26,317 bases of DNA from a virus. The stretch covers positions 1 to 26,317 of the IMG/VR virus record IMGVR_UViG_3300043772_000538; one strand, given 5' to 3'. Under the pieces are notes generated by a model, which saw nothing but the letters and a program-made list of their open reading frames with translations, had not been told where the DNA came from and ran no database searches. Below, piece by piece: positions 1-24,833 of the stretch (the stretch's first letter is position 1; every line of letters begins with the position of its first letter). A program made the translations under genes and the position numbers.

Positions 1-3000
1 GCCTCGGGGGACGCGCCGGCCAGGTCCATCACTCCTTCGATGGCGGCCAGCTGCTCTCCGATCACGCGGCTCATCTCGGCATTGGGAGACTGCACCAGGC
101 GAACGAGGTTGATCTTGGCAGGCGCCGCAGGGGCAACCTTCTTTGGCCCGAACTGTGTCCCCTTGAACCGGCCACGGATTACGTCCTGGGCAAGTTTCAG
201 GGTGGTCGGCGAGTAGTTCAGGAACCCGTCGCGGATCGTGCGCCAGTGGGCGTACTTCGGGAGGTCGAGACCCTCCTCGATCGCCTCTGGATCGGGCTCT
301 TCTTTGGCGTCCATGGCTTCCTGGTACTGAGCGCGAAGCTCTTCGTTGCCGGCTGCGCTAGCCATCATAACCGCCCATCCGGCGTTGAACTCAGCCTGCT
401 TGACGGCGTCCTCGGTAGCCTTCTGGACCTTGGCCTGGGTCGCAGGCTTGGTCATCAGCGCTAGGCGCTCGTCGGCCGTGAGCTTTCGATTCGGAGGCTG
501 GGGAGGCTCGGTAACCCCAAGCATCCGCGCGTTCTGGATGATCTGCTCGATAGCTTCATTCTCAATCTCGCGTTCCTGTTTCTCCTTCTGAGTTTTCGGC
601 TTCTTGGTAGTCAGGCGCGCCTGGACAGTGCGGTAAACGCGGCCACCGGTATCGGCCAGTGCCAGGACTCCAAACCGATTCAGCATCTCCCGGAGGTCAG
701 GCTTCTCGCCAACGATCTTCTGGATATCGGCCTCGGTAAACTGACCACGGAACTCGGTCATGATCTTGTCCATCACACCCTTGACGCTCTCACCGTTGAA
801 GCTGTCGTAGATGGCTGATGTAAGGAATCCGCGCACATTGCGAGCCATGGCCACGAAGTCCTTCACGGACGCCCTCAGGCTCGCCAGGTTAATACCAAAC
901 TGGGACGCCTCAGACTGACCGATCAGGTAGAGTTCATCTCGGGTATCAGGGCTGAATGCCTCGGATGCGCCGAAGTGGTTGCGGAGCGACTGGATTAGTT
1001 CTGCGATGGTATCGCTGCGGCCATCGGCCTTGGCCTTGGCGATCTTCTTTTTGGCGACCTCGATCAGCTTTCTTCCAGCCGCCTCCTGGTCAACCCCATC
1101 GACAGGCGCGAAGAGGGTGTCTCCCACTTGGCGGAACTTTACACCCGCCTCGTTGAACGCATCAACCGCCAGCTGGATACCAGCGTTTACAACCTCAGGA
1201 GTCCTAGACCGTCGGCCGGCGACAGTGTCCTCGTATGCGCCACGCTTGGTGGTTACAGGCTTGCCGGGCGTACTGTAGATCACACCGAAGTCGCTGCTAT
1301 TCGCACGCTCCGGCAAGGTGGCTACATCAGCGATAACCTCTGGTGTGGGCTCGACCGTAGATCCTTGAGCGCGGTCCCAAGCGTACTGCAACGCCGGACT
1401 GAGCTTCATTTGCAGGCTGGTCGCCCATCGTGAGGCGCTCTGGATGCCGGAGAGGATTGCTTTGGACGCCAGATTGGTAAGGGTTTCAAGAACCCGGCGC
1501 GCAGAATCCTCGGGCGTCGGGCCTTCAGTGATGCCAGCCTTGGGAGTGATAGACTCGACGAACTGGGCGATAGCGTCGGAGACTTCGGCGACGGCGTCGC
1601 TGAGGTCATCGAAAGAGGGGGTGAGGCGTACTGTAGGCCCACTTGGATCTGACGACAGCTGCCAAAACGAAACCCTTCCAGAAGCCTTTGGATTGCTTGC
1701 AACGATAATGTTTCCAGAGGTCCGCACGTCTCCAAAGTGCTTACGAACCTCAGCAACGTAGTCGGATGTCTTCTTGTTGTTCTGGAATCCTTTGGATGTT
1801 CTGCGGCCATTGCCAGATCGGTCACCCTCGTAAATTTGGAAGTAGGCAACTCCGTTGGGCTCAAGCGCCTGAGCAGCCTGAAGAATGACATTGTCTCTAG
1901 CGGGAGCCTCAGCAACGACATTCAATACGTTAGGGACGGTCGTGGTTCCAAATCGCTCGCCTGACTGCAACCGATTGACAGCTGCACGATTGGATTCAAC
2001 GCTTCGATTGAACGGATCAAACGGAACACTCTCCGTGACACCCCGCTCGCTCTCAAGGTACTGCTTCCCGAGGTCGAACTTACCGGCACCAATGTCCAGG
2101 TTTTTGCCGCGAGGAACGAAGATCTTACTCTTAAAGACTGCGGGGATCTGGGCCAGTGAAGTGTCGGCTGAGGAGACGTCTTGAGACGGTTGATCTGGCA
2201 TGAGGCTAATCAGCCGGTTAGACAACTCGGCATCATTGACAGGGTCATTTGGGTAACTTTGCCGTGCCTGTGCAACCGCCTGGCGAATTGCGCGATCCAC
2301 AGCCATGCCGGTGTGAATCAACCCCTTGGCGATCTGAAGGGCCAGCTTCGCCAGCGGCGTTAAAAGCAACGGATCCGAGTATTGATTTTCGTCGATGTTC
2401 CTAGTGATCTGATCAATGGCATCAATCGCTGATTTGCCGGCCCGTTGAATCGGACTTTCGTCAAAGAGATTCATCTGCGCCTTATCCTGGGCAGCCTTAG
2501 CTTCAGCAGCGGCGCGGGCTTCAGCTTGAGCCTTTTCTCTGCGAGCCTCCAGGTCGATGCCTTCCTCTCCAAGCAGGGTAACCTGTTCGGATTGCGTGCT
2601 GGTAATCAGATCACCCTGGTTTTCTTTAGCTGTAAGGCGGGGTTTGCGTTCGGCGGGCGCAGCCGGCCCTTCGGTAGGAAATTCAAACGCATCTCCGCCT
2701 CCGCGATCAGGAGGTTCATCCACGAAGATCGTGTCGTATTCCGTCAGTTGCTGAGCTCCAAATTTATCGCCATCGCGAATCGTGTAACCTCCATCTGGAG
2801 TAACAACTGTAACCTCGAATTGCTCGCCTTGAACCGAGAACTTGTCTCCAAGCGCAAGGCTTCCAACTGATATTTGAATAGGTCCATCTGGTTCTCCAGC
2901 ATTCTGCATCCCCTCAGTTTGAGCATCAACGAACGCATCATCCTGCGCCTGTAAGAACGCATCGAGACCCATCGCTTCTTTGGCGCCGGCTTCCGCTGCC

Positions 3001-6000
3001 TTAGTTTCCTCTTTAGCAGCAGCGACGTCTCCTTTGCGACCGCGTGCTGCCTTCTTAACTTCATCCCAGAACTCAGACACGCTCATGTCCCCATACTTAC
3101 CGGGGTTTTGCATGGCAAGCTCCTGGAGGAGTACGTCTGGCAGATTCCGGCTTGTTGTTCCGCGCGACCTTCCTGCGAAGATTTTATTGAAGTACGCATC
3201 CAGTTTTGGAGCGTCGTCGTAGAGGTCTCTGATCCTATTTAGGCGTCCTTCATTGTTGGCCTGCGTTTTAGACATGACGCCACCGAGAGCAATAATGTCA
3301 TCAAGGATGTCTCCTTTGAACGCCCACGCGCGGGCTTTGTAGCGCTTCTTAGGAGCGGCAGGTGTAGCTGGAGGTGTGGGGACAACAGGAGGTGTGGGTG
3401 CCACCGGAGGCGTCGGCTCCTTCTTCGTCAGGTCCTTCTTGGCCGCCTCGGCAGCATTAGCCCCTGAGAACGACTCATCCTCGAAATTGAAGTTCTTAAT
3501 GTTGGTAGCGGTAGCTCCCACCTCTCCTTGAACCAGCGCGCCCATGTCCCTCATGCGGCCACCAACTCGGGTCGCCAGTTCGCGCTCAAACGGAATGTTG
3601 TCCGCGAAGAGCCACATCATCTGGGCTTTACCTCTGAGTCCGTAGCGCGCAGACCGCAGCGACACCTGCTCCACCTGAGATGCGGTCCACGGCAAGTTGA
3701 CGTTGATCTGGGTTGTCGGGTGCGTTCCAGTCTTGTCGTGTAACGATAGCCCTGTGCCGCCCTTAGCCATCGTGGCGACCAGGACCATAGGCTTGTCGCC
3801 GCGCCAGAGTTCGAGATTCTTCTGGGCCCGCGCATCTGTCACCGAACCCGTGAAGATTGCGACATCGTTGGCGCCAATCTCGTTTTTGATCACGTCTTCA
3901 GCGGACGGTATCGAAATTACAGTGGTGTCAATTCGCTCCATCGTCGCTTCCAGCACGTTAATTATGCCGTCTGACAGCAACCCTTGGTAATCCGAACGCT
4001 TCGGCTTTTCGCCTCCCGTCCTCTCTGCTATGGCTTTGGCTCGCTTGAATTGCTCCTGGAGCCTCAGCTGCTCTTGAATGTCGATGCTTCTCTCTGCCTT
4101 GGTCTCAACGAATATGATCGGCCATCTTCCGGCACTGAGGGCCCGGCGTGCTTCGCTGATTGCGTTCTTGATCTTAGACGCTTCCAGCAGGCGCTTCTTG
4201 TAGTTGATGATCCACATCTTTTCAGTGCCATCGAGGGAGCCCTTTTGAGCCTCGGCTTCAGCCGCAAACGCATTGTAGGTGTTGGTCCATTCTTCATCCC
4301 CTTTGATGGGCACCAGGCGCGAATCAACTTGGCTTGCTGGCAGTCGGGTCTTTCGAGCCGTGAAGATACCTTCCTTGCGGAAGAAATTTCTCGCCGCAAT
4401 TTGATCCTGCTCGTTGGTTTTAGTTGGGAACCAAATGGTTCGGACGATGTTTCCTCCGCTGTCCCTACTCGGTGTCGCACCGTACGCAAGAGCGAACTGT
4501 TTGTAATCACCGTTGAACGAATCAAAGATTCCAGTGTTCAGTAGGTAGGCCGTCTGAGTCGGGTTCTCGAACGGCGTCGCGGTTGAGAAGATCGGGAACT
4601 TGGTCTTAAGAATCCACTCTTGAGCCTTCTTGGCCTGCTCTGATCCGCTTCCAGCCAGGTTCTTGATCGCGTGCGCTTCGTCGAAGATTATCACGTCTGA
4701 GTCTTCCGCTTGGAGATCCTTCATCTCCGAGTAGGTGATAAACTTCACGGGGCCGATATTGTAAGCCTTGAGATCCTGTTTGATCTGCTTAATCAACCCT
4801 TGATTGAGGGTCACGTAGATGATCTTGCGGGCGAAATAATTATCCTTTATCTCGCGAATAGCAGCCCCCAACACGAAGGTCTTTCCGGTTCCAGGTGCGC
4901 TGGAAAGCATGAAGAACGGCCGGGTGTCTCGTTCCGCAAACGCTCGCACTATCATGGCCGCGTCTTCAATCTGCTCATCTCCAACTTCTCTCGGGATGCC
5001 AAACTCTTCGCCTTGGCGGATAAGCTCCTGAGTTCCTACGTCAAGATACTTGTCAACGCCTCCGTCCAATCCGCTTCGGTCGGGCCGGTTGTCCGCATTC
5101 TCTCGGAGTTTTCGGAGTTCAACATCACGGGAATAAGCCGGGCCACTACTTCTTTGTCCGCCAGCAGCTCCCGAATCAGCTCTTGATCGCTCGATAAACT
5201 GCCCAAGACCGGCGGCAGAGATCGTGTAGAACTTGTCATTCCCGATTTGGGAATATCGTCCGCCGGCATTGGTAAGTTCTTCTTTGCGGTCGTAAGTCTT
5301 ACCCCGGAGGGTGATGCTACCATCTGGGTTCTGCCGGGCGTTAATCTTGAGGCCAGTGAGGAAGGATTGGTTTTCATCGGTAAGGATTGCTTCGGCTTTC
5401 GCTCTCTCTTCTGTGACCGCGTTCTGGTATTCCGGCAGTGAGTTAATGTAGTCGCCAACTTGGCGCGAGCGCGACCCAAGGGCGGCGCTCCTGGTGCTTC
5501 GGACCAACCACATAGCGTAGTCCGGCTGTTGCGCGAAGAGGTCTTTGACTAAGAGGGCGGCGTACTTCCCGTGGCTAACGTTTTGGTTGGCGATTGCGGG
5601 GGTAGCAGCAGGGGCGGGGCGGGGTGCGGGGGCGGGGGGCTTAGGCGCGGGCGCGGCGGGCGCAGGTTTAGGTGCAGCGGGAGTCGCCGCCGGCGCAGGA
5701 ACCAGCGCGGCCCTCAAGGCTTTAATGGTCCCGACGGGATCTAACTTTAGACCGCTGTTAACACCGCTCATCTGGCCGCTATCCATCCGCATTCCGATTT
5801 CGGATTGGGCAAATCCTTCCGCAGTTAGACGACCTCGTTCCGCTTGTGTTTGAAGTCTCTCCAGCTCGAAGTCCGCGTCTTTGTATAAAAGCGGGCTAAA
5901 CCCGTAATTCGGAGCCTCCGTGATCGTGTACCGGAAATCAGGCGCCACCTGGAACGGGGTTGGCTCCTGTGGCGCAGTAGGCGTTTCTGCCACGGCTGGC

Positions 6001-7514
6001 GTTTCTGCCACGGCGGGGGTCGCCGCAGCTTCAGGCTTAGTCCACCCCGTGGTCTCATCGAACTGAAACCCAGCATCTTGCAGCTGGCGAATACGGCCAA
6101 CAAAACCCTCGAAACGAATCAACTCTTCATCAGTAAGGAGAACATCAGTGACTGAGCCTTCTCCGATGGCGTCAACGATTGAGAGAAATTCCTGAGTCTC
6201 CTCAACCGTCAGCGGCTGGACTTCGGTGGGAGTAGCAGAGACCGATGTCTCGGAGGCAGCGACCGTCTCAGGAGCAACAGCGGTAACTTCGACTGGGGTC
6301 TCCTCATCAGCTACGTCGGTCTCCAGAGCCATGTCTGGAATCTTGGCTTCTTCATCTGCCGGCACAACAGCCCTACCTGGAGGTACGAGCTTAATCGGTC
6401 CAGAAGGCGCGCCGCCGGAGTTGATGCCAGCAAGGGTGGCGGTGGCGTTGGGGAGTGGGAGGTTGGGATCGCCGCCGATAGCAGCGACGCCGGCTGCTTG
6501 GCGGTCGATGATTTCCTGAAGGCGCTGCCCTCCAGGTGCAGGCCCTTCGACAAGGCGTTGCTCCTGGATCTGGCCCATCCTACGAACTCGTCCATAACGG
6601 CCTGCTCCGCCAGTCACTAATCCAACCAGGCCACCTACCGTTCCGCCGACTGAAGTCGAATCATAAACGCCTTCGCTTAGTTTCTGATCGGGGTTGTAAG
6701 TCTTCCTGGCGACTGCGTTGCCAAGCCATTGCTCTGACCCCTCCTGACCAGCTTCTCCGACCAACGGTTTTAAGATATCTTCTAGGAGGTTTTTTCCTGC
6801 CTTGCCCGCTATCGCCTGATTGATTGCCGGCACCGCTCCGATAGCTCGCTCCGTAAGCCCACCAATCGGCGCAGTGTAAAAAGCCGCTTGGTACTGTTTG
6901 GTAGGCTTTTCAGCTTGTAGGCGATTGACCTCTGTTATGTTCCCTTCAGCCAATGCCTGCGCGATCTTGGCGTCGTAAAACTGGCCAGCGCGTTGAGCCG
7001 CATCTTCTGCGGTGCTGAATGCGTAAGCCGCTTGCCCGACACCAGGCACTATCGACACAGGAAGTGACCCTAGTCCGCTGGCGACCTGGGTGAGAAAATC
7101 ATCTTCTCGAAGGGGATTGACTGGGAATGCTTCTCTTGCGCCCTCTTGAAGCGCCTTGCCCATCTGGAATGTCGGGCTGGCCTCAAGCATCGCTGCACGA
7201 GCCATGGTTTCCTCCGGCGACACCTCCTTGACGCGCTTTTCCCAGGCTGCCTGCCTACGTTCGTAGGCCGCCATCGCAGCTGGGCTTTCAGCCTGTGCTG
7301 CTGAGATTAATGGCGCTGGCTCTTCGAGGCCTACACGCGTCAGGCCCATCATACCTCCACCGACCATGCGGCCACCTTCGCGCATGAGGGCGTTGCCAGC
7401 AGCGGGCAGCGCGCCTTGATCAATAGAATCAACAAGCTCTTGAAGCTCTTGGTCAGTGGCATCATCGGGAACCTCGATCAGGCCGATGTCCTGGATATCA
7501 ATGAGCTTAGGCAT
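1..7514 (-). CDS. Giant polyvalent protein: SF2/SNF2-type helicase plus SAM methyltransferase (C-terminus off window)
   Basis: At least 2504 residues in one uninterrupted frame from an ATG at 7514, open at the left edge. Residues 14-31 read EVPDDATDQELQELVDSI, a short N-terminal motif common in phage injected and polyvalent proteins. Residues about 253-305 hold a Glu/Gln patch and a Gly-rich hydrophobic stretch. About 643-675 resembles the ExoX C-terminal-like module (HGKYAALL...DYAMWL). About 738-765 resembles a small KALGGRW-type domain. The helicase follows: Walker A APGTGKT (873-879), DEAH (945-948), STATPF (about 977), GGTGLSLHD (about 1250) and an arginine motif RSARYGLRG (about 1287). 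About 1543-1595 looks like a small beta-barrel. The methyltransferase starts with LDIGAGKFD (about 1806) and DPFNRS (about 1832). The C-terminal 600 residues are helical and unassigned. Phage P1 DarB, which also joins a methyltransferase and helicase, is packaged and protects injected DNA. That role is inferred here. The start lies 3 bases after the upstream stop, with no Shine-Dalgarno sequence. Confidence 0.88.
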   Translation of the reverse strand, partial: MPKLIDIQDIGLIEVPDDATDQELQELVDSIDQGALPAAGNALMREGGRMVGGGMMGLTRVGLEEPAPLISAAQAESPAAMAAYERRQAAWEKRVKEVSPEETMARAAMLEASPTFQMGKALQEGAREAFPVNPLREDDFLTQVASGLGSLPVSIVPGVGQAAYAFSTAEDAAQRAGQFYDAKIAQALAEGNITEVNRLQAEKPTKQYQAAFYTAPIGGLTERAIGAVPAINQAIAGKAGKNLLEDILKPLVGEAGQEGSEQWLGNAVARKTYNPDQKLSEGVYDSTSVGGTVGGLVGLVTGGAGRYGRVRRMGQIQEQRLVEGPAPGGQRLQEIIDRQAAGVAAIGGDPNLPLPNATATLAGINSGGAPSGPIKLVPPGRAVVPADEEAKIPDMALETDVADEETPVEVTAVAPETVAASETSVSATPTEVQPLTVEETQEFLSIVDAIGEGSVTDVLLTDEELIRFEGFVGRIRQLQDAGFQFDETTGWTKPEAAATPAVAETPAVAETPTAPQEPTPFQVAPDFRYTITEAPNYGFSPLLYKDADFELERLQTQAERGRLTAEGFAQSEIGMRMDSGQMSGVNSGLKLDPVGTIKALRAALVPAPAATPAAPKPAPAAPAPKPPAPAPRPAPAATPAIANQNVSHGKYAALLVKDLFAQQPDYAMWLVRSTRSAALGSRSRQVGDYINSLPEYQNAVTEERAKAEAILTDENQSFLTGLKINARQNPDGSITLRGKTYDRKEELTNAGGRYSQIGNDKFYTISAAGLGQFIERSRADSGAAGGQRSSGPAYSRDVELRKLRENADNRPDRSGLDGGVDKYLDVGTQELIRQGEEFGIPREVGDEQIEDAAMIVRAFAERDTRPFFMLSSAPGTGKTFVLGAAIREIKDNYFARKIIYVTLNQGLIKQIKQDLKAYNIGPVKFITYSEMKDLQAEDSDVIIFDEAHAIKNLAGSGSEQAKKAQEWILKTKFPIFSTATPFENPTQTAYLLNTGIFDSFNGDYKQFALAYGATPSRDSGGNIVRTIWFPTKTNEQDQIAARNFFRKEGIFTARKTRLPASQVDSRLVPIKGDEEWTNTYNAFAAEAEAQKGSLDGTEKMWIINYKKRLLEASKIKNAISEARRALSAGRWPIIFVETKAERSIDIQEQLRLQEQFKRAKAIAERTGGEKPKRSDYQGLLSDGIINVLEATMERIDTTVISIPSAEDVIKNEIGANDVAIFTGSVTDARAQKNLELWRGDKPMVLVATMAKGGTGLSLHDKTGTHPTTQINVNLPWTASQVEQVSLRSARYGLRGKAQMMWLFADNIPFERELATRVGGRMRDMGALVQGEVGATATNIKNFNFEDESFSGANAAEAAKKDLTKKEPTPPVAPTPPVVPTPPATPAAPKKRYKARAWAFKGDILDDIIALGGVMSKTQANNEGRLNRIRDLYDDAPKLDAYFNKIFAGRSRGTTSRNLPDVLLQELAMQNPGKYGDMSVSEFWDEVKKAARGRKGDVAAAKEETKAAEAGAKEAMGLDAFLQAQDDAFVDAQTEGMQNAGEPDGPIQISVGSLALGDKFSVQGEQFEVTVVTPDGGYTIRDGDKFGAQQLTEYDTIFVDEPPDRGGGDAFEFPTEGPAAPAERKPRLTAKENQGDLITSTQSEQVTLLGEEGIDLEARREKAQAEARAAAEAKAAQDKAQMNLFDESPIQRAGKSAIDAIDQITRNIDENQYSDPLLLTPLAKLALQIAKGLIHTGMAVDRAIRQAVAQARQSYPNDPVNDAELSNRLISLMPDQPSQDVSSADTSLAQIPAVFKSKIFVPRGKNLDIGAGKFDLGKQYLESERGVTESVPFDPFNRSVESNRAAVNRLQSGERFGTTTVPNVLNVVAEAPARDNVILQAAQALEPNGVAYFQIYEGDRSGNGRRTSKGFQNNKKTSDYVAEVRKHFGDVRTSGNIIVASNPKASGRVSFWQLSSDPSGPTVRLTPSFDDLSDAVAEVSDAIAQFVESITPKAGITEGPTPEDSARRVLETLTNLASKAILSGIQSASRWATSLQMKLSPALQYAWDRAQGSTVEPTPEVIADVATLPERANSSDFGVIYSTPGKPVTTKRGAYEDTVAGRRSRTPEVVNAGIQLAVDAFNEAGVKFRQVGDTLFAPVDGVDQEAAGRKLIEVAKKKIAKAKADGRSDTIAELIQSLRNHFGASEAFSPDTRDELYLIGQSEASQFGINLASLRASVKDFVAMARNVRGFLTSAIYDSFNGESVKGVMDKIMTEFRGQFTEADIQKIVGEKPDLREMLNRFGVLALADTGGRVYRTVQARLTTKKPKTQKEKQEREIENEAIEQIIQNARMLGVTEPPQPPNRKLTADERLALMTKPATQAKVQKATEDAVKQAEFNAGWAVMMASAAGNEELRAQYQEAMDAKEEPDPEAIEEGLDLPKYAHWRTIRDGFLNYSPTTLKLAQDVIRGRFKGTQFGPKKVAPAAPAKINLVRLVQSPNAEMSRVIGEQLAAIEGVMDLAGASPE
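3364..3417 (-). repeat. Three tandem 18-bp units coding a Pro/Thr linker
   Basis: Three imperfect 18-base units (3364-3381, 3382-3399, 3400-3417) code for PTPPVA-like hexapeptides in the giant protein. They lie between the end of the helicase and the next helical domain, so they most likely encode a flexible interdomain linker. Confidence 0.8.
5590..5702 (-). repeat. Low-complexity Pro/Ala-rich linker coding segment
   Basis: A very G-rich stretch on the plus strand that codes on the minus strand for about 35 residues of almost only Pro, Ala and Lys. It lies just before the ExoX-like module of the giant protein (residues about 605-641) and separates the N-terminal region from the enzymatic part. 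It is probably an extended linker. Confidence 0.8.
5981..6016 (-). repeat. Two tandem 18-bp units in the giant gene
   Basis: Two adjacent 18-base copies that differ at one position (5981-5998 and 5999-6016). They code for repeated AVAETP-type hexapeptides and look like replication slippage in a linker. Confidence 0.8.
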
Positions 7515-7517: not shown

Positions 7518-8486
7518 TTATTTAGTGAGGACAAGTTTGCCGTTGATCGGATCTCGTTTCCAGACTCCTTTTACCTCAAGCGCGGGGGCCGCATTTGTTG
7601 CGGAAGGTAAACCGGGAGGCGCAACAAGCCTATCAAGTCCAGCATCTACCTCCTCCTTTGTGTACTTCATTTCAGTTTCGTTTCCTTCAGCATCTTTCAC
7701 CTTGACGGTTTTAACGAAAACCGGCCGATCTGACTTCGTTGCTTTAGGTATCTTTATAAGGGCTGTTTTGCCTCCTCCAATGTCAATATATTGATATCCT
7801 TCTGGAGGTTTTTTAAGAGAAGTCCTTGCAGGCGGTTGAACTAAAGTTTCAGGGACACCTTGTGTTTGCCTAATCTCATTCAACACGTTTAACTCAGTGT
7901 CTTGTGACGGCCCACTGATTGCTGGCTCAAGATCTGCCGGTATCGCTTTCGGTTGCAGTAACATCCCCCCTTGCGACGCCAGAACCTTTTGAAGCGCGAT
8001 ATCGTTCTTCAGATTTTCCACCATCCCTAGCGCCACGCCCCTCTGATATGATTTGGATTTAAGGATATTAGGGTCAATTCCCTCTAGTGGTTTTCCAAGG
8101 GCTGCGGCTAATCCAGCGGTCTCGTTAAATATGTTTTGACTTTCAGATTCTTCTAATTTGGCGGCAGATGCAATCAGGTCAATGTTTCCTTTTGCATCAC
8201 GGACAAGGCTTTTTCCAAATTTAAGTCCCAGCGTGTCGTCACGCTGCTTTGCTGCTAACACGTCTGCGTCAGTTCGCCGTTTTAACTCATCCGCGCGCCC
8301 TGTTGCCGCCAACGCCGCCGCCTCTCGCCGCTGGTCAACCAGATCCTGATAATACTGCCCTCGCATCCGCGTCTCTTCAGCACGCTGCGCTGTTGCTTCC
8401 TCCCTGGCCTGGCGTTGATTCGCCAGCTGCACGCCTTGGAGGTACGACTGCCCGATGTTTTCGAGTCCTGAGAAGGGGTTTGCCAT
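7518..8486 (-). CDS. Coiled-coil phage protein, putative internal virion or ejection protein
   Basis: A 322-residue protein starting MANPFSGLENIGQSYLQG. Residues about 15-80 are rich in Gln, Arg, Glu and Ala with heptad-like spacing, suggesting a long helix or coiled coil. The rest is mixed, with a basic beta-like region near the C-terminus (about 230-320). I do not recognise a defined family. It sits between a glycine-rich internal virion protein and the giant polyvalent gene, the place where podoviruses often encode proteins ejected with the DNA, so a virion-internal role is inferred. The ATG is 6 bases beyond the stop of the gene before it. Its TAA is 3 bases from the start of the giant gene, which suggests coupled translation. 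A weak AAGGA lies too far upstream (about 15 bases) to be convincing. Confidence 0.75.
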   Translation of the reverse strand: MANPFSGLENIGQSYLQGVQLANQRQAREEATAQRAEETRMRGQYYQDLVDQRREAAALAATGRADELKRRTDADVLAAKQRDDTLGLKFGKSLVRDAKGNIDLIASAAKLEESESQNIFNETAGLAAALGKPLEGIDPNILKSKSYQRGVALGMVENLKNDIALQKVLASQGGMLLQPKAIPADLEPAISGPSQDTELNVLNEIRQTQGVPETLVQPPARTSLKKPPEGYQYIDIGGGKTALIKIPKATKSDRPVFVKTVKVKDAEGNETEMKYTKEEVDAGLDRLVAPPGLPSATNAAPALEVKGVWKRDPINGKLVLTK

Positions 8487-8492: not shown

Positions 8493-9263
8493 TTAGCTTA
8501 GTCCTTGGCGACCGTAACCTGTCGGCATTCCAGTTGAATAATTCCAATCACCACCTGTGCCAGCATTAGCGCGAGTTTGCGCCCCCAGCTGCGCGAATCC
8601 AAGGTTGGTTAACCCTGATCCAAGCGATCCGAATGCCTGACCAGCAACTCCAGTTGCGCTCGGCATACCGGCAACACCAAGCAGCGCCTGTTGCTGGGCG
8701 CCACGCTCACCGCCTCGCAGGGCTGCTATCTGTTGCGGAGTGAACTCGTAGTTGGCTAGCGGTGCCATTGGTGTGGTTCCGATTATGTTGGCGAATTGTT
8801 GTTCACCGAGTCTTGCGGCTTCATAAGAACCCCGACCAAGGTCTCGAAGAACCAAATTCTTCCCGGCTCCACTTCCGGCAAACCCTTTCTCAAGAGCTTG
8901 ACTGGCCGCTCTACGTTGAATCTGCGCCGCGACATCAGGTGGTAGTTCTCCTCGAAGCAGCGCTAGCGCGTTCTGCGTGCGCTGAGCTTGGCCTTCCTGA
9001 TAACCAGGAATCTGAATGCCGAGTGACTCCAGCAGCTGGGCGCGACTAATCGCATTTCGCTCAGCCTCCATTTCACGGGCACGAGGCGCGTTTAGGGAGG
9101 ATTCTCCCATCACTGAGCCAATGTTGATTCCCGGGAGGTTAGCGGCGTCACGGCCTTGCCGGCGTGCTGCGCTGGCAGACGATGCCGACATACCGGCACC
9201 AATCCCTGCCGACACAATTCCGCCTGCGATTACTGGCCCAACTGCTGATGCGAATATTGACAT
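8493..9263 (-). CDS. Gly/Ala-rich putative internal virion protein (gp14-like position)
   Basis: 256 residues. The N-terminus (about residues 8-30) is hydrophobic and glycine-rich, AGGIVSAGIGAGMSAS, like the membrane-active N-termini of small podovirus ejection proteins. The middle (about 60-160) is rich in Arg, Gln and Ala with helical character. The C-terminal 90 residues are Gly/Gln-rich low complexity. Family membership cannot be proven by eye. The position next to the coiled-coil and giant genes and the composition support a T7 gp14-type internal protein, but this is an inference. The start overlaps the end of the cupin-like gene by 34 bases in another frame. A GAGGG lies about 18 bases upstream, too far for a usual ribosome binding site. 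An alternative is a generic structural protein with no membrane role. Confidence 0.75.
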   Translation of the reverse strand: MSIFASAVGPVIAGGIVSAGIGAGMSASSASAARRQGRDAANLPGINIGSVMGESSLNAPRAREMEAERNAISRAQLLESLGIQIPGYQEGQAQRTQNALALLRGELPPDVAAQIQRRAASQALEKGFAGSGAGKNLVLRDLGRGSYEAARLGEQQFANIIGTTPMAPLANYEFTPQQIAALRGGERGAQQQALLGVAGMPSATGVAGQAFGSLGSGLTNLGFAQLGAQTRANAGTGGDWNYSTGMPTGYGRQGLS

Positions 9264-9727
9264 AGTAAGTATTGATTTTCCCTCACGGACGCAATGTCGT
9301 TCAGGATGTCTTCGTGATCCGTCTTATTGCTGGGGTTTAAGTGGACCGTCGTCCAAGTGGTATCTTCATGGATAAACAGCACACGGCGGGTTCCTGGCTT
9401 CGTGATGCCAGAATACGGCGCTACGTAGGTGACTAGACCTTCGTTCTCGCTAATGACCGTGACCCTGCCTTTGGTGATGAAGAACGGGTTGTCGAACTTA
9501 TGGATGCGACTGGTTACGATTGACCCAGCCGGCATGAAGATTTCACGCACGTACATCCCCTCTGGGAACGTGTGTTTTAGCGGACACTCCTGTTGAGGAA
9601 GATTCGCCACAAACGCTTCCCATCTGTCCAGACGATCGTCGAACGTGATAGTTTCATCCGTCAGGATGTCGAGCCACGTCACCGGCTGCGTCGCTACTGG
9701 AAGCTCTTCGGTAATCAGGGTCATCAT
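9230..9727 (-). CDS. Cupin-like small phage protein
   Basis: 165 residues. The central part (about 60-130) reads as a small double-stranded beta-helix: EIFMPAGSIVTSRIHKFDNP, then KGRVTV, then a GITKPGTRRVLFIHEDT strand pair. Histidines at 76, 120 and 129 could form a metal site. Similar cupin-like proteins are common among phage structural genes, but their role is not known to me. The start ATGATG overlaps the TGA of the adaptor-like gene. A GGTGGA five bases before the first ATG is one of the few Shine-Dalgarno-like sequences in the window. The 3' end overlaps the next gene by 34 bases. Virion association is inferred only from the neighbours. Confidence 0.8.
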   Translation of the reverse strand: MMTLITEELPVATQPVTWLDILTDETITFDDRLDRWEAFVANLPQQECPLKHTFPEGMYVREIFMPAGSIVTSRIHKFDNPFFITKGRVTVISENEGLVTYVAPYSGITKPGTRRVLFIHEDTTWTTVHLNPSNKTDHEDILNDIASVRENQYLLCQYSHQQLGQ

Positions 9728-11794: not shown

Positions 11795-14700
11795 CTAGAT
11801 GCGGTAAAGGTAGTCGTTTGGCTTACACGGGCCTGGGTCGCATTCAAGCGCCAAACAAGCCTCCGGACAATCGAAATAGAAGAATTGGTTCAGCGGCGCA
11901 ACGCATCCCGATGATCTTCCGCTAATGAAAAAGGTCGCGAACCTGCCACCGTTGTTGATCACCAGCGGGTCTCCACTCAAGCGGCGCACCGTGTTGCATC
12001 CAATCTGGATGTTCTCGACGTACCTTAGGAAGTTCCCGGTTGATGATGTGAACGCGACATTGGGGCCAGGACTCGCGCAGGTAAACGTCGTCAGCGTAGG
12101 AATCCCAGTCACGATCACCTCGTCGTTGAACGAAACATCGCTGAGCCCCTCAACGGTTGCGTGGTATCCAACGACCATCTGGTGCGCCTTGTTCGTCGTG
12201 TACGTGGCCACCCCTGCGGTGCGCTGAAATCCGATGGGTTGGATTTCCCAAGGAAAGTCTACCGGGCTATCAATTCCCAGAAGCCCTCCAGTGGTGCTTT
12301 CGTTTACGCCTGGATTTAAGACGGTGAAAGTCGTGGTAGTCGGAGTGGCTATAACCGTGAATTTTCCAATGAAGCTTCCGATGACGGTTTTCAGAATCGT
12401 CACCTTAAAACCAGGTTGAAGCTCGTGCGCTGAAGCCGTTGTAAACGTCGTTACGCCAGTAAGGCGCGTCGCTGATGTAACAGGAATTTGATAATCCGTT
12501 GGATAGTAAAAAGCAGACTTATCTACATCGTGGTTGTTAATAAGAAACGGAGCGTTGATCGGAGGATAGGCTGGCTGGTAATACCATGAATCAGGCCCAG
12601 ACAACAAAACGTCGTTGTTTTCAATTACCATGTTCTTATGCGCCGCTGTAAACGGGGAATAAAACTGGGCGTTATTTAGTGCGTAATAATCTACAGTTTG
12701 CAGCGCAATAAAAGAACTAACATTCAACGCTTCATTGTGGTGTAGGTGGGTTCCTTTATGAAAAAACGAATCAACGTAGAAACAAGTTCCAATATAACCA
12801 TTGAAATTGTTGTACCTTACCTCTGCATCAACCGTTTCCCTCACCGTCACTGCGTGTAGCGGGCTTTGAGCATCCGGTCTATTCGGTCCAGATATAAATT
12901 TGTTTTCTTCTACGACACAATCCGATGCAAAGATGCGCCGGCTGCGAAGCATCATTACTGTGCCATCTCGGTACAGGCCAGGGAGGACGTTTGGGTTAGC
13001 GTTTGCAGCTGTAAATTTATACTGATCTGGTATGGTAAGAACGGTGTATGTGCCGTTGAATGTCGCGTCTGAAAAACCGCTTACCACCACTACATCACCC
13101 ACCCTCAACGTGTGCTTCATCACGCAGGTGTATGTAGCAATTCCGGCCGATCTTGATATGATATTAATCGGATCTACTATTGATGAATATCCGCCAACCA
13201 CAACCTCCGTAACAGCCTCTGCGTTTCCAACGTAAAGTGTTCCTTGAACCGAGTTGCTGCCTTCGTATCCGAACTTATTTCTTAGAACTTTGGCTCCTGG
13301 CGTTCCATCCTCCACCGTCATTGGGAGGAATGTTTTAACCACAAATGATTCTTGGTTCAACGTCCCGTTCCCAAAATCGTAGAACTCGCAATCTTGAATC
13401 AGTGCGTTCTCTCCTGTGTGGTTAATGCCAGCAATAGTGTAGACCGAGTTTGCGCCAGCGTTTACTTGCGGTGTTAGGAGGACATCTGGAGCGGACCATG
13501 CGCGGCCGTTTTGGAGCAGGTCAACGGTGCCTAAGTCTGGAATTGGTCCAATGTTGGTTCCAGGGTTAGCGCAAGTAAACTGAACCGGGCTTGGATATCC
13601 ATTTACGACAAACGTCCCGTTAAACGACGCATCGGAAAGACCTTGAATCAGGACGTTTTCTCCGCCCACGAAACCGTGCGGAGTTGCAGTATCGTAAATT
13701 GCATTTCCAGCTAACCTTTCAAATCCATTAATCTGAACAGTCGTCGTAGGCCCAACATTAACACACAACACCTCGTTGATTGAAGGAAACGATACAACTA
13801 CAAATGTTCCATTTAGCGTTGCGTTTGAAAATCCAGTTACAGTAAACGAATTTCCAATAGTAAAAGGGAAATACCAATTAGGATGGCGAGTGTAAATAGC
13901 TTGATTTACAGAATTTCTTTTTGCTTGAATTAATACAACGCCAACGTCTCGTTGAAACGAAAATTGAGTGATGTTCTGAACTTGACCATAACCCACAAAT
14001 GTAACATCAGCTCCAGTTCCGGCGGTTATAACATTACTGATATATTGCTGATATATTCCTACGTTTGTATACAACGGAGGAATTGGAGGGACGTATACAG
14101 GAGGTGCCTGTGATGAAAACTGAGTTGTTAAACCATACGGATGAACAAATGCAATAGGTATTGCAGAGTTGTAGGTATTTATTCCGTTAGTTCTCTGAAC
14201 TGATACTATTTTAACATCAGCAACGGAATTGTTTCTGTAATTTCCATCAATAGTAAGACCTTGTATTAAAGTATTTTTGCAATTTGTAGCATCTGCTGGG
14301 TTTCCTTTTACGCTTAAAGGAACTCCAACAACTCCTGATCCAGTGGCGGTCCCGATAGTCTTAATCATCTGGGCGCTTAACCCATACAAATCAAATATCT
14401 TTGTCGATGTATGATCTGCAAACTTAAGGATAGTTTTTCCTGCGCCTTGACCAGTGATCTCAATATTGTTGATCGCCGCATCGTATCCAAGTAGAATTGA
14501 GGATGTAAATCCTCCGCCAACAAGGTTTATCCATCCATCTTCGGTGACCAATCCAGAGTTTGGTCCAGGAACCGTTGCTGTAAACGTAGTTGAGCTTGGG
14601 GTTGCATCGACGCGGAAGCCATAATAAGTTGCGGGATTTCCGTCAGGTCCGTTGAACGTAGGGTCCGTAAAACCGTACAGCGTAATTTTCTCTCCAACAA

Positions 14701-14911
14701 CCAGTCCGTGGGCAGTAGAGGTGTTGAACGTCGCAACGCCTCCGGTGCGGACACGGTTGATAATCTTCGCTCCCGGGCTCGATCCAAGCAGAAACGTGCC
14801 AACCGGAAAATGGCATTTGCCAGTGAGATTCAAGCATTCACTGATCGCCCACGCGCTGTTTCTTAGTCCGCAGGGATCGGCGCCGTAATCGACTGGATTG
14901 TATGATGGCAT
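11795..14911 (-). CDS. Tailspike, right-handed beta-helix with six inserted repeat modules
   Basis: 1038 residues. I chose the ATG at 14911 over the longer frame to 15106 because it begins 1 base after the upstream stop and opens directly with the pectate-lyase-like entry MPSYNPVDYGADPCGLRN...CHFPVGTFLL (residues 1-42). Short PbH1-like turns recur (LIQGLTIDGNY, LIQDCEFYDFGNG, VIENNDVLLSG). Six copies of a roughly 68-residue module are set into this scaffold (residues 51-126, 320-392, 396-463, 584-652, 812-877, 894-960). Each has a GVATY..AHGL..G start, a G(F/L)SDA(S/T)FNGT middle and a FT..NPGPN end. The last 40 residues hold five cysteines. It is presumably a trimeric host-polymer-binding or depolymerising spike. 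No catalytic residues can be named by eye. Confidence 0.88.
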   Translation of the reverse strand: MPSYNPVDYGADPCGLRNSAWAISECLNLTGKCHFPVGTFLLGSSPGAKIINRVRTGGVATFNTSTAHGLVVGEKITLYGFTDPTFNGPDGNPATYYGFRVDATPSSTTFTATVPGPNSGLVTEDGWINLVGGGFTSSILLGYDAAINNIEITGQGAGKTILKFADHTSTKIFDLYGLSAQMIKTIGTATGSGVVGVPLSVKGNPADATNCKNTLIQGLTIDGNYRNNSVADVKIVSVQRTNGINTYNSAIPIAFVHPYGLTTQFSSQAPPVYVPPIPPLYTNVGIYQQYISNVITAGTGADVTFVGYGQVQNITQFSFQRDVGVVLIQAKRNSVNQAIYTRHPNWYFPFTIGNSFTVTGFSNATLNGTFVVVSFPSINEVLCVNVGPTTTVQINGFERLAGNAIYDTATPHGFVGGENVLIQGLSDASFNGTFVVNGYPSPVQFTCANPGTNIGPIPDLGTVDLLQNGRAWSAPDVLLTPQVNAGANSVYTIAGINHTGENALIQDCEFYDFGNGTLNQESFVVKTFLPMTVEDGTPGAKVLRNKFGYEGSNSVQGTLYVGNAEAVTEVVVGGYSSIVDPINIISRSAGIATYTCVMKHTLRVGDVVVVSGFSDATFNGTYTVLTIPDQYKFTAANANPNVLPGLYRDGTVMMLRSRRIFASDCVVEENKFISGPNRPDAQSPLHAVTVRETVDAEVRYNNFNGYIGTCFYVDSFFHKGTHLHHNEALNVSSFIALQTVDYYALNNAQFYSPFTAAHKNMVIENNDVLLSGPDSWYYQPAYPPINAPFLINNHDVDKSAFYYPTDYQIPVTSATRLTGVTTFTTASAHELQPGFKVTILKTVIGSFIGKFTVIATPTTTTFTVLNPGVNESTTGGLLGIDSPVDFPWEIQPIGFQRTAGVATYTTNKAHQMVVGYHATVEGLSDVSFNDEVIVTGIPTLTTFTCASPGPNVAFTSSTGNFLRYVENIQIGCNTVRRLSGDPLVINNGGRFATFFISGRSSGCVAPLNQFFYFDCPEACLALECDPGPCKPNDYLYRI
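12032..12232 (-). repeat. Tailspike repeat module copy 6
   Basis: Residues 894-960 of the tailspike. It opens FQRTAGVATYTTNKAH, continues EGLSDVSFND, and ends TTFTCASPGPN. This is the copy nearest the consensus. See the finding on the repeat family. Confidence 0.85.
12281..12478 (-). repeat. Tailspike repeat module copy 5
   Basis: Residues 812-877 of the tailspike. It opens TSATRLTGVTTFTTASAHEL and ends TTFTVLNPGVN. The middle GFSDA segment is diverged (TVIGSFIGKF). Confidence 0.8.
12956..13162 (-). repeat. Tailspike repeat module copy 4
   Basis: Residues 584-652 of the tailspike. It opens IISRSAGIATYTCVMKHTLR, contains SGFSDATFNGTYTV, and ends YKFTAANANPN. Confidence 0.85.
13523..13726 (-). 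repeat. Tailspike repeat module copy 3
   Basis: Residues 396-463 of the tailspike. It opens FERLAGNAIYDTATPHGF, contains QGLSDASFNGTFVV, and ends VQFTCANPGTN. It directly follows copy 2, so the two form a tandem pair. Confidence 0.85.
13736..13954 (-). repeat. Tailspike repeat module copy 2 (diverged)
   Basis: Residues 320-392 of the tailspike. The opening is diverged and longer, but TVTGFSNATLNGTFVVVS and the downstream VGP ending identify it. It lies in the A/T-rich part of the gene. Confidence 0.7.
14534..14761 (-). repeat. Tailspike repeat module copy 1
   Basis: Residues 51-126 of the tailspike. It opens INRVRTGGVATFNTSTAHGL, contains YGFTDPTFNG with a short insertion after it, and ends TTFTATVPGPN. 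It lies immediately after the N-terminal beta-helix entry motif. Confidence 0.85.
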
Positions 14912-14912
14912 A

Positions 14913-16952
14913 CTATTCGGAGAGTAGCGGACACGCGACGCGGCTGAGATCGCCGTAAATATCCTCTTGAAGGCGTTGAGCAACCATCGCCACACGTTTG
15001 AGGCGGAAGCGGCCGGTGTTGACGTATCGAAGCTGGAACTCATAGCCATCGCGGGTAAATCCCCCGGTCTGCACGTCGCACTTGTCCGGAGGCTGCGGTA
15101 GGGCAATGCGCGATCTTGCAGGGGGCTGGTAGTATTTGACCTCCTGGCAGTTGATCACCGCAGGAGGGCAGGAAATCTCGCCTGGTTCGCAGTTGCGGTA
15201 CTTCGCGCAGTCCTTGATCTCGGCCCACGGATGCCAGCACTCACCCTCGTTAGCCTTGAAGTAGACCTTTGATTCAATGTCGCCCATCACCTGGTCGTAC
15301 CACTGCTCGGCGCTGACAAGGCGCTTCTTGTTTGTAGGTTCACCAAACGTGATCGACCGGGTCTCAATGGTCCATTCGATCGGAGCATCATCGTATCCAT
15401 CGAAGTCAAACTGGCCGTTCTTGGTGACCTCAAAGAGACCGATGTCCCCTTGATTCAGTCCAAACATGAAGCAGTGTTCTTGTTTCTGGATTCGGATCGT
15501 CAGCATCTGGAACACATCGACTCCAGTCCATACACCCTCCCATGCCGGCGGCAGCTTCCGGCCCATTCCGGAGACGAGATCGAAGTCTAGGGCTACGACT
15601 CCTCGGTGTACCGTGCCTCTACCGTTGACCTTCTGAGGCTGAATGGTCATCAGCATCCGGTTGTCGAAATTTACCGCGCTGGCTGCGGTCAGGTAAAACT
15701 CCGTGTCGTAAGCTATCGCACGAGTAACCTGCCGGCTAATCGGTGTATTTCCAAACTCAGTGAAGTCGCGTCTGGCGTAGATCAACGATCGGATGCCGTC
15801 CTGAGCACGGAAAAACAGGTCGCCGTTTACCGGCACGATGGATTCGTGGTTGAACGATCCGAAGTTCAGGAGCGCGAATCGCTGGATTGGATAGCTGAGA
15901 TCCTTCCAAACATCCCGGTCCACAGGCGCGTTAAACGCGTAAGTGGCGGTCGGGGTAAACACCAGTAGGTCTCCGTCGCCAAGGGACGTGTCCAGGTTGG
16001 CCGCGAATGCCAGCCCCGTGATCGGGCCGTTTGAGACCGCAAAGGCACCGCCTTCATTGATAAATGTGTTCTCGGTGAATCGAATCACGCTGTCCCGGCC
16101 GTAAGCAGGATCTCCGTAGACTAAGTCTCCACCGTAGTATTCCGATCCACTGGCTACCCAAAGGCGTCCTTTTCCGTAAGCCATCGGACCCCCAACTGGA
16201 ACCTCATCACTTAATGCTCGTCTCAACGAAGTTCCATCGTAGAGATACGGAGCATTCTGTTGATCTTGAATAATCAGCCAGTTTTCCGCCTGCTGAAAGT
16301 AAACGTGAGCTGCGCTGGGATTGTTGGTTGAAAGCAGGTAGCCAAAAAAGGCTGGCCCTAGAAATGGCCCAACATCAGCTCCTGGAGAGTATGTCGTGAA
16401 GCTGTCAAAAGTCGGGATGTTTTGGACAATAAAGTCCCCAAAGAACCCAGCTGGCGAGGTAGCCCCAGGAACCTCCGGCAACCTTACTACCATGCCAGGG
16501 AAAAGCCCGTGCGCTCCACCAGTCACGTAAGTCGCAACATTGGCAACGCGACCACGGGTAAAAACGACAAACTGCGAAGCGATTGCGGAGAGATCGGTGA
16601 CCTTAAATTTATTTTCGATGTCGATCTTGAAGACCTTGCCGCTAATCGACGCAAAAATGTAAGGGTCTCCGTTATCAGAAACGTATGTTCCGCACCCCTG
16701 GAACTGGCCTTCTTTAAATCCCGATTGCACCGCAGCGTTGTAGTAACCTCCGTTGTAGAGAACGCTTGGATCGTCAAAAGTCAGCAGTTGGGTCCAAATC
16801 CCAGGTCGCGCTTTCGGGAATCCTCCGCGCACCGTCGTGTTTACCGCCCATGCTAGCTGGTTCGGTTGAATGAGTGAGGGCGAAAAACCGCTATCCACCC
16901 CACCTTCAGCGGTGAGGAGGCCATCTACTATGCGATTTTTTTCTGCGACCAT
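14913..16952 (-). CDS. Putative tail tubular B-like / tail stabiliser protein
   Basis: 679 residues from the ATG at 16952 (MVAEKNRIVDGLLTAEGG). A TTG 14 codons upstream is in frame but is rejected because the protein pattern begins at this methionine. The sequence is beta-rich with propeller-like segments (GGPMAYGKGRLWVASGSEY, GDGDLLVFTPTATYAF, VNGDLFFRAQDGIRSLIYAR). This fits the large beta-structured tail-tube or nozzle proteins of podoviruses. Residues 131-199 carry a seventh copy of the module found six times in the tailspike next door. A cysteine-rich segment lies at about 569-608 (GECWHPWAEIKDCAKYRNC and following). The C-terminus is basic and helical. It is the first gene of the long minus operon, and its start overlaps one candidate start of the divergent terminase. 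Assignment rests on context and composition. Confidence 0.75.
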   Translation of the reverse strand: MVAEKNRIVDGLLTAEGGVDSGFSPSLIQPNQLAWAVNTTVRGGFPKARPGIWTQLLTFDDPSVLYNGGYYNAAVQSGFKEGQFQGCGTYVSDNGDPYIFASISGKVFKIDIENKFKVTDLSAIASQFVVFTRGRVANVATYVTGGAHGLFPGMVVRLPEVPGATSPAGFFGDFIVQNIPTFDSFTTYSPGADVGPFLGPAFFGYLLSTNNPSAAHVYFQQAENWLIIQDQQNAPYLYDGTSLRRALSDEVPVGGPMAYGKGRLWVASGSEYYGGDLVYGDPAYGRDSVIRFTENTFINEGGAFAVSNGPITGLAFAANLDTSLGDGDLLVFTPTATYAFNAPVDRDVWKDLSYPIQRFALLNFGSFNHESIVPVNGDLFFRAQDGIRSLIYARRDFTEFGNTPISRQVTRAIAYDTEFYLTAASAVNFDNRMLMTIQPQKVNGRGTVHRGVVALDFDLVSGMGRKLPPAWEGVWTGVDVFQMLTIRIQKQEHCFMFGLNQGDIGLFEVTKNGQFDFDGYDDAPIEWTIETRSITFGEPTNKKRLVSAEQWYDQVMGDIESKVYFKANEGECWHPWAEIKDCAKYRNCEPGEISCPPAVINCQEVKYYQPPARSRIALPQPPDKCDVQTGGFTRDGYEFQLRYVNTGRFRLKRVAMVAQRLQEDIYGDLSRVACPLLSE
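16356..16562 (-). repeat. Seventh repeat module, in the tail-tube-like protein
   Basis: Residues 131-199 of the 679-residue protein. It opens FTRGRVANVATYVTGGAHGL and has FPGMVVRL, GDFIVQNIP and FTTYSPGADVGP in the same order as the tailspike modules. It has an extra loop where those have the SDASFNG segment. Confidence 0.75.
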
Positions 16953-23605: not shown

Positions 23606-23606
23606 G

Positions 23607-23852
23607 CTACCAGGCGGCGCAACTCCAGTGCTTCGCAGAGAGCTTCGTGCCCGGTGTGTCACAACCATGCCGGGCACGAAAGCTTTTACGGTTCTTCGGG
23701 ATGTGCTTCTTGATGGTCATGTTCGGATCACCAAAGCGCACGAGCTTTACTTGCCCGCCCTCCTTAGCCAAGACAGCGGACTTCTTGGAGGCGCCTGGCG
23801 TAGACTTCGGCTTGTTGTACCCGGCAAATTTCTGGCCTCGGTAGGTAATCAT
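23607..23852 (-). CDS. Conserved basic phage protein of unknown function
   Basis: 81 residues from the ATG at 23852 (MITYRGQKFAGYNKPKSTPG). It continues SKKSAVLAKEGGQVKLVRFG, then KNRKSFRARHGCDTP and SAKHWSCAAW. I recognise the KSFRARH and C-terminal W-S-C pattern as recurring in small phage proteins close to head or lysis genes, but the family function is not known to me. It is basic and likely nucleic-acid- or capsid-associated. The ATG overlaps the lipoprotein stop by four bases (ATGA), which supports this start over a longer one at 23876. A probable terminator of the opposing operon lies inside its coding sequence. Confidence 0.85.
   Translation of the reverse strand: MITYRGQKFAGYNKPKSTPGASKKSAVLAKEGGQVKLVRFGDPNMTIKKHIPKNRKSFRARHGCDTPGTKLSAKHWSCAAW
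23641..23687 (+). terminator. Probable rho-independent terminator of the packaging operon
   Basis: The left arm AGCTTCGTGCCCGG (23641-23654) pairs with the right arm at 23670-23684 (14 base pairs, one bulged A, 15-base loop), followed by TTTT. It lies about 35 bases after the plus-strand scaffold stop. The run of T is short, so it is strong as a hairpin and only moderate as a terminator. It sits inside the coding sequence of the convergent small gene. Confidence 0.7.
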
Positions 23853-24067
23853 TTGGCTTTCGGTAGTACGTACCACCCAGCTGGAAGGGTAACCCGACTC
23901 GGCCCAGAGAGTTTACCGTCCTTGTCAAACGCGTAGACGCGAGCGCGGACGGGCTCTGCTAGCATCACGGGATCACCGCTAGGAACGAGGATTACCTTCG
24001 TCTGCTGGCAACCCAGGCAGATCGGCAACACGAGCAGCCAAATCGTTCTTGAGAGGCTTTGGTGCAT
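23849..24067 (-). CDS. Small lipoprotein, putative lysis-associated protein
   Basis: 72 residues from the ATG at 24067 (an in-frame ATG at 24073 is an alternative). The signal region is SRTIWLLVLPICLGC, with an LGC lipobox that is unusual in having Cys at -3. The mature part (QQTKVILVPSGDPVMLAEPV onward, ending VTLPAGWYVLP) matches a small-protein pattern I associate with phage lysis clusters. It probably sits in the outer membrane or periplasm. A GGAAG about 7 bases upstream is a rare Shine-Dalgarno-like site. It overlaps the upstream 55-residue gene by 89 bases in another frame, as nested lysis (Rz/Rz1-like) genes do. It also overlaps the next gene by ATGA. The spanin role is inferred, not shown. 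Confidence 0.75.
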   Translation of the reverse strand: MHQSLSRTIWLLVLPICLGCQQTKVILVPSGDPVMLAEPVRARVYAFDKDGKLSGPSRVTLPAGWYVLPKAK

Positions 24068-24146
24068 TTCCATCTTCCACTTTTGGTGCAGGCGTCTCTC
24101 GGAGAAAATCCAAGAGAGCCTTCACGAGTTGGTAGATCCAGTTCAA
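23979..24146 (-). CDS. Small protein with amphipathic N-terminal helix, TTG start, nested with lipoprotein gene
   Basis: 55 residues. It begins with TTG, which overlaps the TGA of the previous gene (TTGA), the same pattern as the ATGA junctions nearby, and there is no in-frame ATG close by. It starts LNWIYQLVKALLDFLRE, an amphipathic or membrane-peripheral helix. A charged Pro/Lys-rich part follows, ending GLPADEGNPRS. I have an impression of similar proteins between holin-like and lipoprotein genes, but this is not verified. A role in lysis or membrane association is inferred from position. The 3' half shares 89 bases with the lipoprotein gene in another frame. Confidence 0.65.
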   Translation of the reverse strand: MNWIYQLVKALLDFLRETPAPKVEDGNAPKPLKNDLAARVADLPGLPADEGNPRS

Positions 24147-24337
24147 ACCGGAGGAACGACAGGAGTCTTCTCGGCGTCCTTGGCCATTATAAGACCGATG
24201 CCGGCGGTCACCGCTGCAATGGTCGAAGCGATGTCGATGTTGGTGCTGGGATCGGCGTCGAAGGTGGCCCGTAGGGCGCCTCCAACAGCGATAAGGATTG
24301 CACCAATGCCAGCGAGAGTTGTTTTTGTGTTTTTCAT
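24143..24337 (-). CDS. Two-helix membrane protein, holin-like
   Basis: 64 residues from the ATG at 24337 (MKNTKTTLAGIGAILIAVGG). Two hydrophobic stretches, residues about 7-22 (TLAGIGAILIAVGGAL) and about 37-52 (ASTIAAVTAGIGLIMA), are separated by a short acidic loop. The small size, short charged ends and place directly before the lipoprotein pair fit a holin or pinholin-type protein that permeabilises the inner membrane. A minor phage membrane protein is possible. The start ATG overlaps the TGA of the preceding mini-gene (ATGA), and the end overlaps the next gene by TTGA. Confidence 0.75.
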   Translation of the reverse strand: MKNTKTTLAGIGAILIAVGGALRATFDADPSTNIDIASTIAAVTAGIGLIMAKDAEKTPVVPPV

Positions 24338-24507
24338 TTGGATCGAAATAAGCGATATGCGGCGTAACAGGCGCAAACTAAGCCAACCACTGCGGTTATA
24401 AGTCTAACCCAGTCGGTGAGGATTGGCAGGAATGATGCAGCGGTAGCACCTGCTGCTGCTGCTAGGCTTAACCCTGGGCTGGCACTACCGTTGTTCGTTG
24501 GTTCCAT
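24334..24507 (-). CDS. Small one-helix membrane protein, possible holin component
   Basis: 57 residues, MEPTNNGSASPGLSLAAAAG, with a hydrophobic segment at about 32-50 (WVRLITAVVGLVCACYAAYR) and a basic end, LFRSK. An Ala-rich helix (about 13-30) comes before it. The ORF is too short for standard ORF thresholds but is bounded by exact overlaps on both sides: TAATG with the previous gene and ATGA with the next. Basic C-terminus in the cytoplasm is predicted. It may act with the adjacent two-helix protein, either as a second holin/antiholin or as an anchor. No homology can be named by eye. Confidence 0.7.
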   Translation of the reverse strand: MEPTNNGSASPGLSLAAAAGATAASFLPILTDWVRLITAVVGLVCACYAAYRLFRSK

Positions 24508-24680
24508 TACTCAGGTTTGGCTTGAGAGGCTTTGAACTCCGCTTCTTGTCGCAGGAGTTCGTCGATGATCGGCGCCGCAGTACGAGCAACGTCCCAGCCA
24601 TTGACTCTGATCGCGACTTGAAGGTTCGCAATCAGAGCCTTGGCGGATACGGGGTCGAGGTTCAGCGTCAGTATTTGCAT
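24507..24680 (-). CDS. Small protein, probable tandem paralogue A
   Basis: 57 residues, MQILTLNLDPVSAKALIANL, then QVAIRVNGWDVARTAAPIID and a charged tail. The pattern of hydrophobic and charged positions matches the neighbouring 50-residue gene: M-x-I, a leucine-rich helix, and an A...PIID/PLVD helix. No function is known. It looks like a compact helical protein that may bind another phage or host protein. It overlaps each neighbour by TAATG, so translation is probably coupled. Confidence 0.7.
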   Translation of the reverse strand: MQILTLNLDPVSAKALIANLQVAIRVNGWDVARTAAPIIDELLRQEAEFKASQAKPE

Positions 24681-24832: not shown

Positions 24833-24833
24833 A

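Follow-up and report, generated by a model that had tools for sequence, protein, structure and literature searches.

The window analyzed here is the whole of IMG/VR record IMGVR_UViG_3300043772_000538 (26,317 b), at the left end of which lies a single minus-strand frame of 2504 codons that is open at the window edge. IMG/VR contig 3300034093_000692 (hereafter L002) is 100% identical to the window over 17,514 bp, with zero mismatches, and supplies the remainder of the gene: the complete protein has 3517 aa, of which the window encodes the first 2504, and its conserved C-terminal part of ~1440 aa lies only partly inside the window. The frame of at least 2504 codons on which the original prediction was built is real and belongs to a longer gene. 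Its length is not due to chance, since frames of such length recur in the 17 members of the family described below and the helicase region shows a dN/dS of ~0.12 to 0.22; both the helicase and the C-terminal part are under purifying selection according to the dN/dS analysis. The features of the giant gene and of the genes directly upstream are as follows.

3..7514, minus strand: giant polyvalent gene, codons 1 to 2504 of 3517 (open at the window edge, completed by L002)
6615..7514, minus strand: N-terminal constant part, residues 1 to 300 (in all relatives, including those without the helicase)
5694..5957, minus strand: variable module "PFxVAPDF," residues 520 to 607 (some relatives only)
5400..5582, minus strand: ExoX-C-like module, residues 645 to 705 (sub-threshold match to Pfam PF20600)
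5184..5384, minus strand: pre-helicase module, residues 711 to 777 (family module mapping)
3522..5093, minus strand: predicted SF2 helicase/translocase core, residues 808 to 1331 (Pfam, PHROG, invariant motifs)
4878..4904, minus strand: Walker A motif SSAPGTGKT (invariant across relatives)
4671..4682, minus strand: DEAH box (invariant across relatives)
3645..3668, minus strand: motif VI QVSLRSAR, arginine finger (invariant across relatives)
3030..3338, minus strand: post-helicase module, residues 1393 to 1495 (retained in relatives without the helicase)
2715..2873, minus strand: small conserved module, putative barrel, residues 1548 to 1600 (module mapping)
2232..2471, minus strand: helical linker A, residues 1682 to 1761 (only window/L002, L003, and L007)
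1653..2195, minus strand: SAM methyltransferase cassette, residues 1774 to 1954 (predicted fold, Pfam matches of relatives, invariant motifs)
1362..1598, minus strand: helical linker B, residues 1973 to 2051 (family module mapping)
3..1292, minus strand: start of the C-terminal conserved part, residues 2075 to 2504 (runs on to residue 3517 in L002)
7518..8486, minus strand: putative ejection protein, 322 aa, directly upstream of the giant gene (by position; no family match)
8493..9263, minus strand: putative ejection protein, 256 aa (by position and Ala/Gly-rich composition; no family match)
9230..9727, minus strand: short tail fibre protein (PHROG_12032, 1.1e-29)

As originally predicted, the giant gene is the last of a minus-strand tail/ejection cluster, both in the window and in its relatives; no clear Shine-Dalgarno sequence precedes its start codon, upstream of position 7514 of the window or in the relatives. 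Genes for RecT and a DUF3799 exonuclease come next on the same strand. The gap between the giant gene and RecT (48 bp; L002:20552-20599) is conserved and promoter-like and ends in a near-palindrome overlapping the RecT start; no terminator was found in it. On the opposite strand of the related record L004, a replication module includes a primase gene and a distinct SF2 helicase gene (PHROG_16, 5.9e-103), so that the helicase of the giant is not the only one of that phage. No major capsid gene was recognized within the 26,317-b window. Elsewhere in the window, an 1103-aa tail-spike-like frame (positions 11795 to 15106; 990 to 1271 aa among relatives) lies in a stretch of lower G+C (0.466 at 12001 to 14000). 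Positions 23606 to 25200, between a 415-aa plus-strand protein and a 296-aa minus-strand protein, hold no large frame on either strand and several small minus-strand frames, one of which has a hydrophobic holin-like segment.

The giant belongs to an IMG/VR family of 17 distinct members including the window (L013, which equals L005 in modules and length, was counted with it), three of which (L011, L028, and L047) are truncated where their contigs end; the complete members have 2584 to 3584 aa. Module mapping across the 17 members showed that every complete copy has residues 1 to 300 and the ~1440 residues at the C-terminal end. Between these ends, the content varies. In L023 (2584 aa) and L026 (2609 aa), the helicase is missing and an upstream module runs straight into the post-helicase module, with both ends retained; no helicase of the giant family was found anywhere in these two (incomplete) records. 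A second variable slot (~residues 1680 to 1970) is occupied by a helical linker and the methyltransferase in window/L002, by the linker together with an unrelated domain in place of the methyltransferase in L003, and by the linker alone in L007, the 13 other members having no cargo there. The flanks of this slot are 88 to 95% similar in DNA between L002 and L003. Small modules upstream of the helicase, among them the ExoX-C-like and "TSRTFPF" modules, are likewise gained or lost among relatives, and all of these differences are in frame. What this comparison of 17 giants newly shows is a pair of conserved ends around a modular middle.

Three smaller elements of the original prediction can be placed on this map. 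The ExoX-C-like module is recognizable and missing in L010, L012, L019, L023, L026, and L028, but its Pfam matches are weak and sub-threshold (E 0.00059 in L008 and 0.23 in L003). The N-terminal motif, described as phage-type, is kept within the family but matches no profile. The segment proposed as a beta-barrel (residues 1548 to 1600) is a conserved module of the family, for which the barrel stays putative.

Neither constant end could be assigned to a known family. A tblastn search with the N-terminal 500 and the C-terminal 1067 residues found no relative in 50,697 phage records, and the C-terminal part had none in GTDB genomes, neither in prophages nor in hosts, which argues for an uncultured lineage. 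A shared "DD..E..PGGK..RI" pattern prompted comparison of the C-terminal part with LPD38, an assignment that was unsupported (hhalign E 0.84); the LPD38 model (PF18857) detects four other giants and found nothing in the records of four relatives. No LPD family came up at E<=1 when P0002 and P0003 were scanned against Pfam, whose LPD36 model may miss a divergent copy, and the zincin motif HExxH occurs in none of the giants. Structure prediction, proposed at the outset, was unusable for the last 950 residues (pLDDT 43.9; the model was not used) and succeeded for the methyltransferase, as described below. A tandem duplication of ~108 aa in the C-terminal part, after residue ~2350 to 2500, was seen only in L003, L005, and L007.

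The helicase announced by the original prediction as a DEAH-box SF2 enzyme gave significant profile matches in the window copy itself: residues 808 to 1331 match Pfam ResIII (2.1e-9, above the model cut-off) and the DNA helicase PHROG_62 (1.5e-15), and the Strawberry-notch models AAA_34 and Helicase_C_4 also match, both below cut-off. Walker A, DEAH, STATP, motif V, and motif VI are invariant in eight relatives, down to 62% identity. The helicase is homologous to that of Skulduggery gp28, annotated as "DarB-like antirestriction" (blastp 2.9e-11); P1 DarB is barely detected (E 0.0078), and a PDB sequence search gave zero matches. Altogether, these matches indicate that the helicase of the giant is genuine, retains every SF2 motif, and stands near the Strawberry-notch/DarB-like type.

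The methyltransferase, also foreseen, needed its relatives to be recognized: Pfam detects nothing in the window copy, its relatives exceed the Methyltransf_23 cut-off, and a PDB sequence search gave zero matches. An AlphaFold2 model built from 42 sequences reached a pLDDT of 92.7 and matched PDB structures (Foldseek E 1.3e-5; VIA Z 13.2). The top structural matches listed are all SAM methyltransferases, mostly of small-molecule, peptide, tRNA, or rRNA types, and no DNA methyltransferase is among the best 50 listed. The model shows a Rossmann fold with a Gly-rich motif I and an acidic residue after strand 2, and motif I LDIGAGKFD (D34, G36, and G38) and D60 are invariant in the 42 sequences. 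From the Pfam matches of the relatives, the model, and its fold matches, this minimal ~170-aa domain is therefore, as predicted, a genuine class I SAM methyltransferase, and nothing indicates DNA as its substrate. The [NSD]PP[YFW] pattern is absent from every giant examined; it is also absent from P1 DarB itself, and the mismatch with the DarB type thus rests mainly on the profile test, in which the methyltransferase matched neither P1 DarB nor Skulduggery gp28. Since it is not a DarB-type adenine methylase, DNA methylation is unsupported.

Within the 17-member family, the methyltransferase occurs only in this virus (window/L002), and it was not found elsewhere in the records of 13 relatives (a search run without a positive control). 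At the protein level, it shares 83% identity with a copy carried by L049/L062 within a different protein of 1646 aa. The edge of the cassette is sharp, as only residues ~1774 to 2028 of the giant (the cassette and a short flank) align to L049. Synonymous sites are saturated between the two copies, which at 83% protein identity argues for an old exchange and a protein under selection; a recent transfer of the cassette from L049 was rejected on the same ground. Among the relatives of the methyltransferase, 22 of 43 are part of frames 1000 aa or longer, and in many unrelated long phage proteins it adjoins ART-PolyVal, InPase, phage lysozyme, or LPD38; in L082 and L110, it is combined with an SF2 helicase. 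No short N-terminal packaging-type motif common to the giant and the other methyltransferase-bearing giants was found. A compact protein of 422 to 430 aa in L050/L066 consists of ART-PolyVal fused to the same methyltransferase. Hence, the helicase and methyltransferase do not form a fixed pair: one is absent from two relatives, and the other is an accessory cassette of a single virus.

The domain that takes the place of the methyltransferase in L003 (L003:15320-15751) corresponds to PHROG 30118 and 12224. It also occurs as a solo early gene in T7-like phages, as well as in many phages of enterobacteria and Vibrio; in the T7-like phage IMM-002, it lies immediately 3' of gp0.3, where T7 has its antirestriction gene ocr. 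In CRP-212, it is part of a 1203-aa protein encoded between the portal and coat genes. We regard it as a candidate counter-defence domain.

With constant ends and middle enzymes that are gained, lost, and swapped, the giant resembles a delivery arm with interchangeable tools. We propose, as the probable reading, that it is an ejection-type virion protein with constant delivery ends and an exchangeable cargo middle, likely serving counter-defence or takeover. The phage is probably short-tailed, and the giant would be packaged in its particle; we infer packaging and injection from the gene position, which Skulduggery gp28 shares after its virion structural genes, and from the virion proteomics of JC1 gp69 (PMC9144972). 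The N-terminal ~300 and C-terminal ~1440 residues would act as the scaffold that places the giant in the particle and crosses the cell envelope, and the middle would be a cargo bay, whose domains the family comparison indicates are exchanged as in-frame cassettes. The SF2 translocase would engage the DNA as it enters, either travelling along it or displacing host proteins bound to it, and the methyltransferase, given its predicted fold, could modify some host or phage molecule soon after entry. The most likely purpose would be counter-defence or takeover ahead of the onset of phage gene expression. A bolder extension, which we consider possible if doubtful, is that the ends form a general injection scaffold for any inserted domain, armed in each lineage against local host defences, with the methyltransferase as an injected effector whose target is not DNA.

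The original prediction had taken P1 DarB as its guide, and a true DarB-type antirestriction protein, whose injected methyltransferase and translocase would act in cis on the phage DNA, by modification or coating, to block restriction by the host, could draw on the helicase homology with Skulduggery and on the DarB-like giants that occupy the same gene position and occur in virions. We consider it rather unlikely, as the minimal methyltransferase lacks NPP(Y/F), resembles small-molecule, tRNA, rRNA, and peptide enzymes, fails to match either DarB-like protein, and is not found in the relatives searched. Protection by DNA methylation does not follow, because the DarB dyad has an adenine-type methyltransferase, unlike this one, and the relationship of the giant to P1 DarB is slight and was detected in the helicase only.

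It is unlikely, too, that the giant stays out of the particle and is instead synthesized during infection to serve, together with RecT and the downstream exonuclease, as a helicase of replication or recombination. These genes follow on the same strand with no terminator found before RecT, so a transcript common with early genes is conceivable, which may count against packaging; however, the conserved promoter-like gap separates the giant gene from RecT, the giant gene comes after the ejection-position genes in relatives, the helicase is dispensable in two of them, and L004 encodes a primase and an SF2 helicase elsewhere. As to an assembly chimera or a decaying gene, the presence of the cassette in just one virus of the family might suggest it, but the mismatch-free agreement of two records largely refutes it, the frame is intact and under purifying selection across the family, and the methyltransferase retains its conserved motifs; we give this reading hardly any credence.

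The main interest of the proposed ejection-type protein lies in its swappable cargo and dispensable helicase rather than in the helicase-methyltransferase pair. Relatives with different enzymes make it possible to tell the constant delivery part apart from the cargo. Sequence data by themselves delimit candidate minimal ends for packaging and injection and yield a list of counter-defence candidate domains, including one found alone by the T7 ocr position.

Polyvalent proteins are phage-encoded multidomain giants in which unrelated enzymes are fused (Iyer et al. 2017, PMC5512222). The window giant resembles them in fusing unrelated catalytic domains (helicase and class I SAM methyltransferase), in adjoining late/structural genes in the window and relatives (tail fibre and ejection-position genes upstream), and in sharing its methyltransferase domain with other polyvalent giants, through the ART-PolyVal, InPase, and LPD38 proteins. 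Unlike the described dyad, it has another methyltransferase type in place of an EcoKI/TaqI-like adenine methyltransferase with NPP(Y/F). No HExxH peptidase motif, LPD39, or C-terminal LPD38 was found in it, and no LPD36 was seen in the Pfam scans; the Strawberry-notch/SNF2-type helicase of the DarB dyad is present, as judged from sub-cut-off Pfam models and the Skulduggery homology. P1 DarB likewise joins helicase and methyltransferase in one packaged polypeptide (PMC5512222, PMC9024508), and its packaging was probed with residues 1 to 30 joined to a fluorescent reporter (PMC9024508), but its ends and methyltransferase have no match here and it belongs to another phage type; in order and kind of modules, the window giant is the distinct variant that had been suspected. 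The N4/DEV virion RNA polymerase (~3400 to 3500 aa), a giant enzyme proposed to be ejected with the DNA, is by description similar in size and proposed role, being a polymerase and not a helicase. Compared by description, JC1 gp69, Bcep22 gp75, and CSP3 orf43 are DarB-like podovirus giants with a HepA-type helicase and RecT in the genome. CSP3 orf43 is annotated with a lytic transglycosylase, a HepA-type helicase, and an adenine-specific DNA methylase (PMC10269572), and differs from the window giant in the first and last of these. Skulduggery gp28 (Pseudomonas phage, 3695 aa) is a giant single protein with a homologous SF2 helicase and a methyltransferase downstream of it, as in the window giant, but has its own SLT transglycosylase, LPD39, an NPPF-type methyltransferase, and ends not detectably related. 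Burkholderia phage JC1 gp69 (4515 aa) closes the virion module and gave 51 unique peptides in purified virions (PMC9144972). The closest known counterparts of the window giant are these DarB-like giants of short-tailed phages, JC1 gp69 and Skulduggery gp28.
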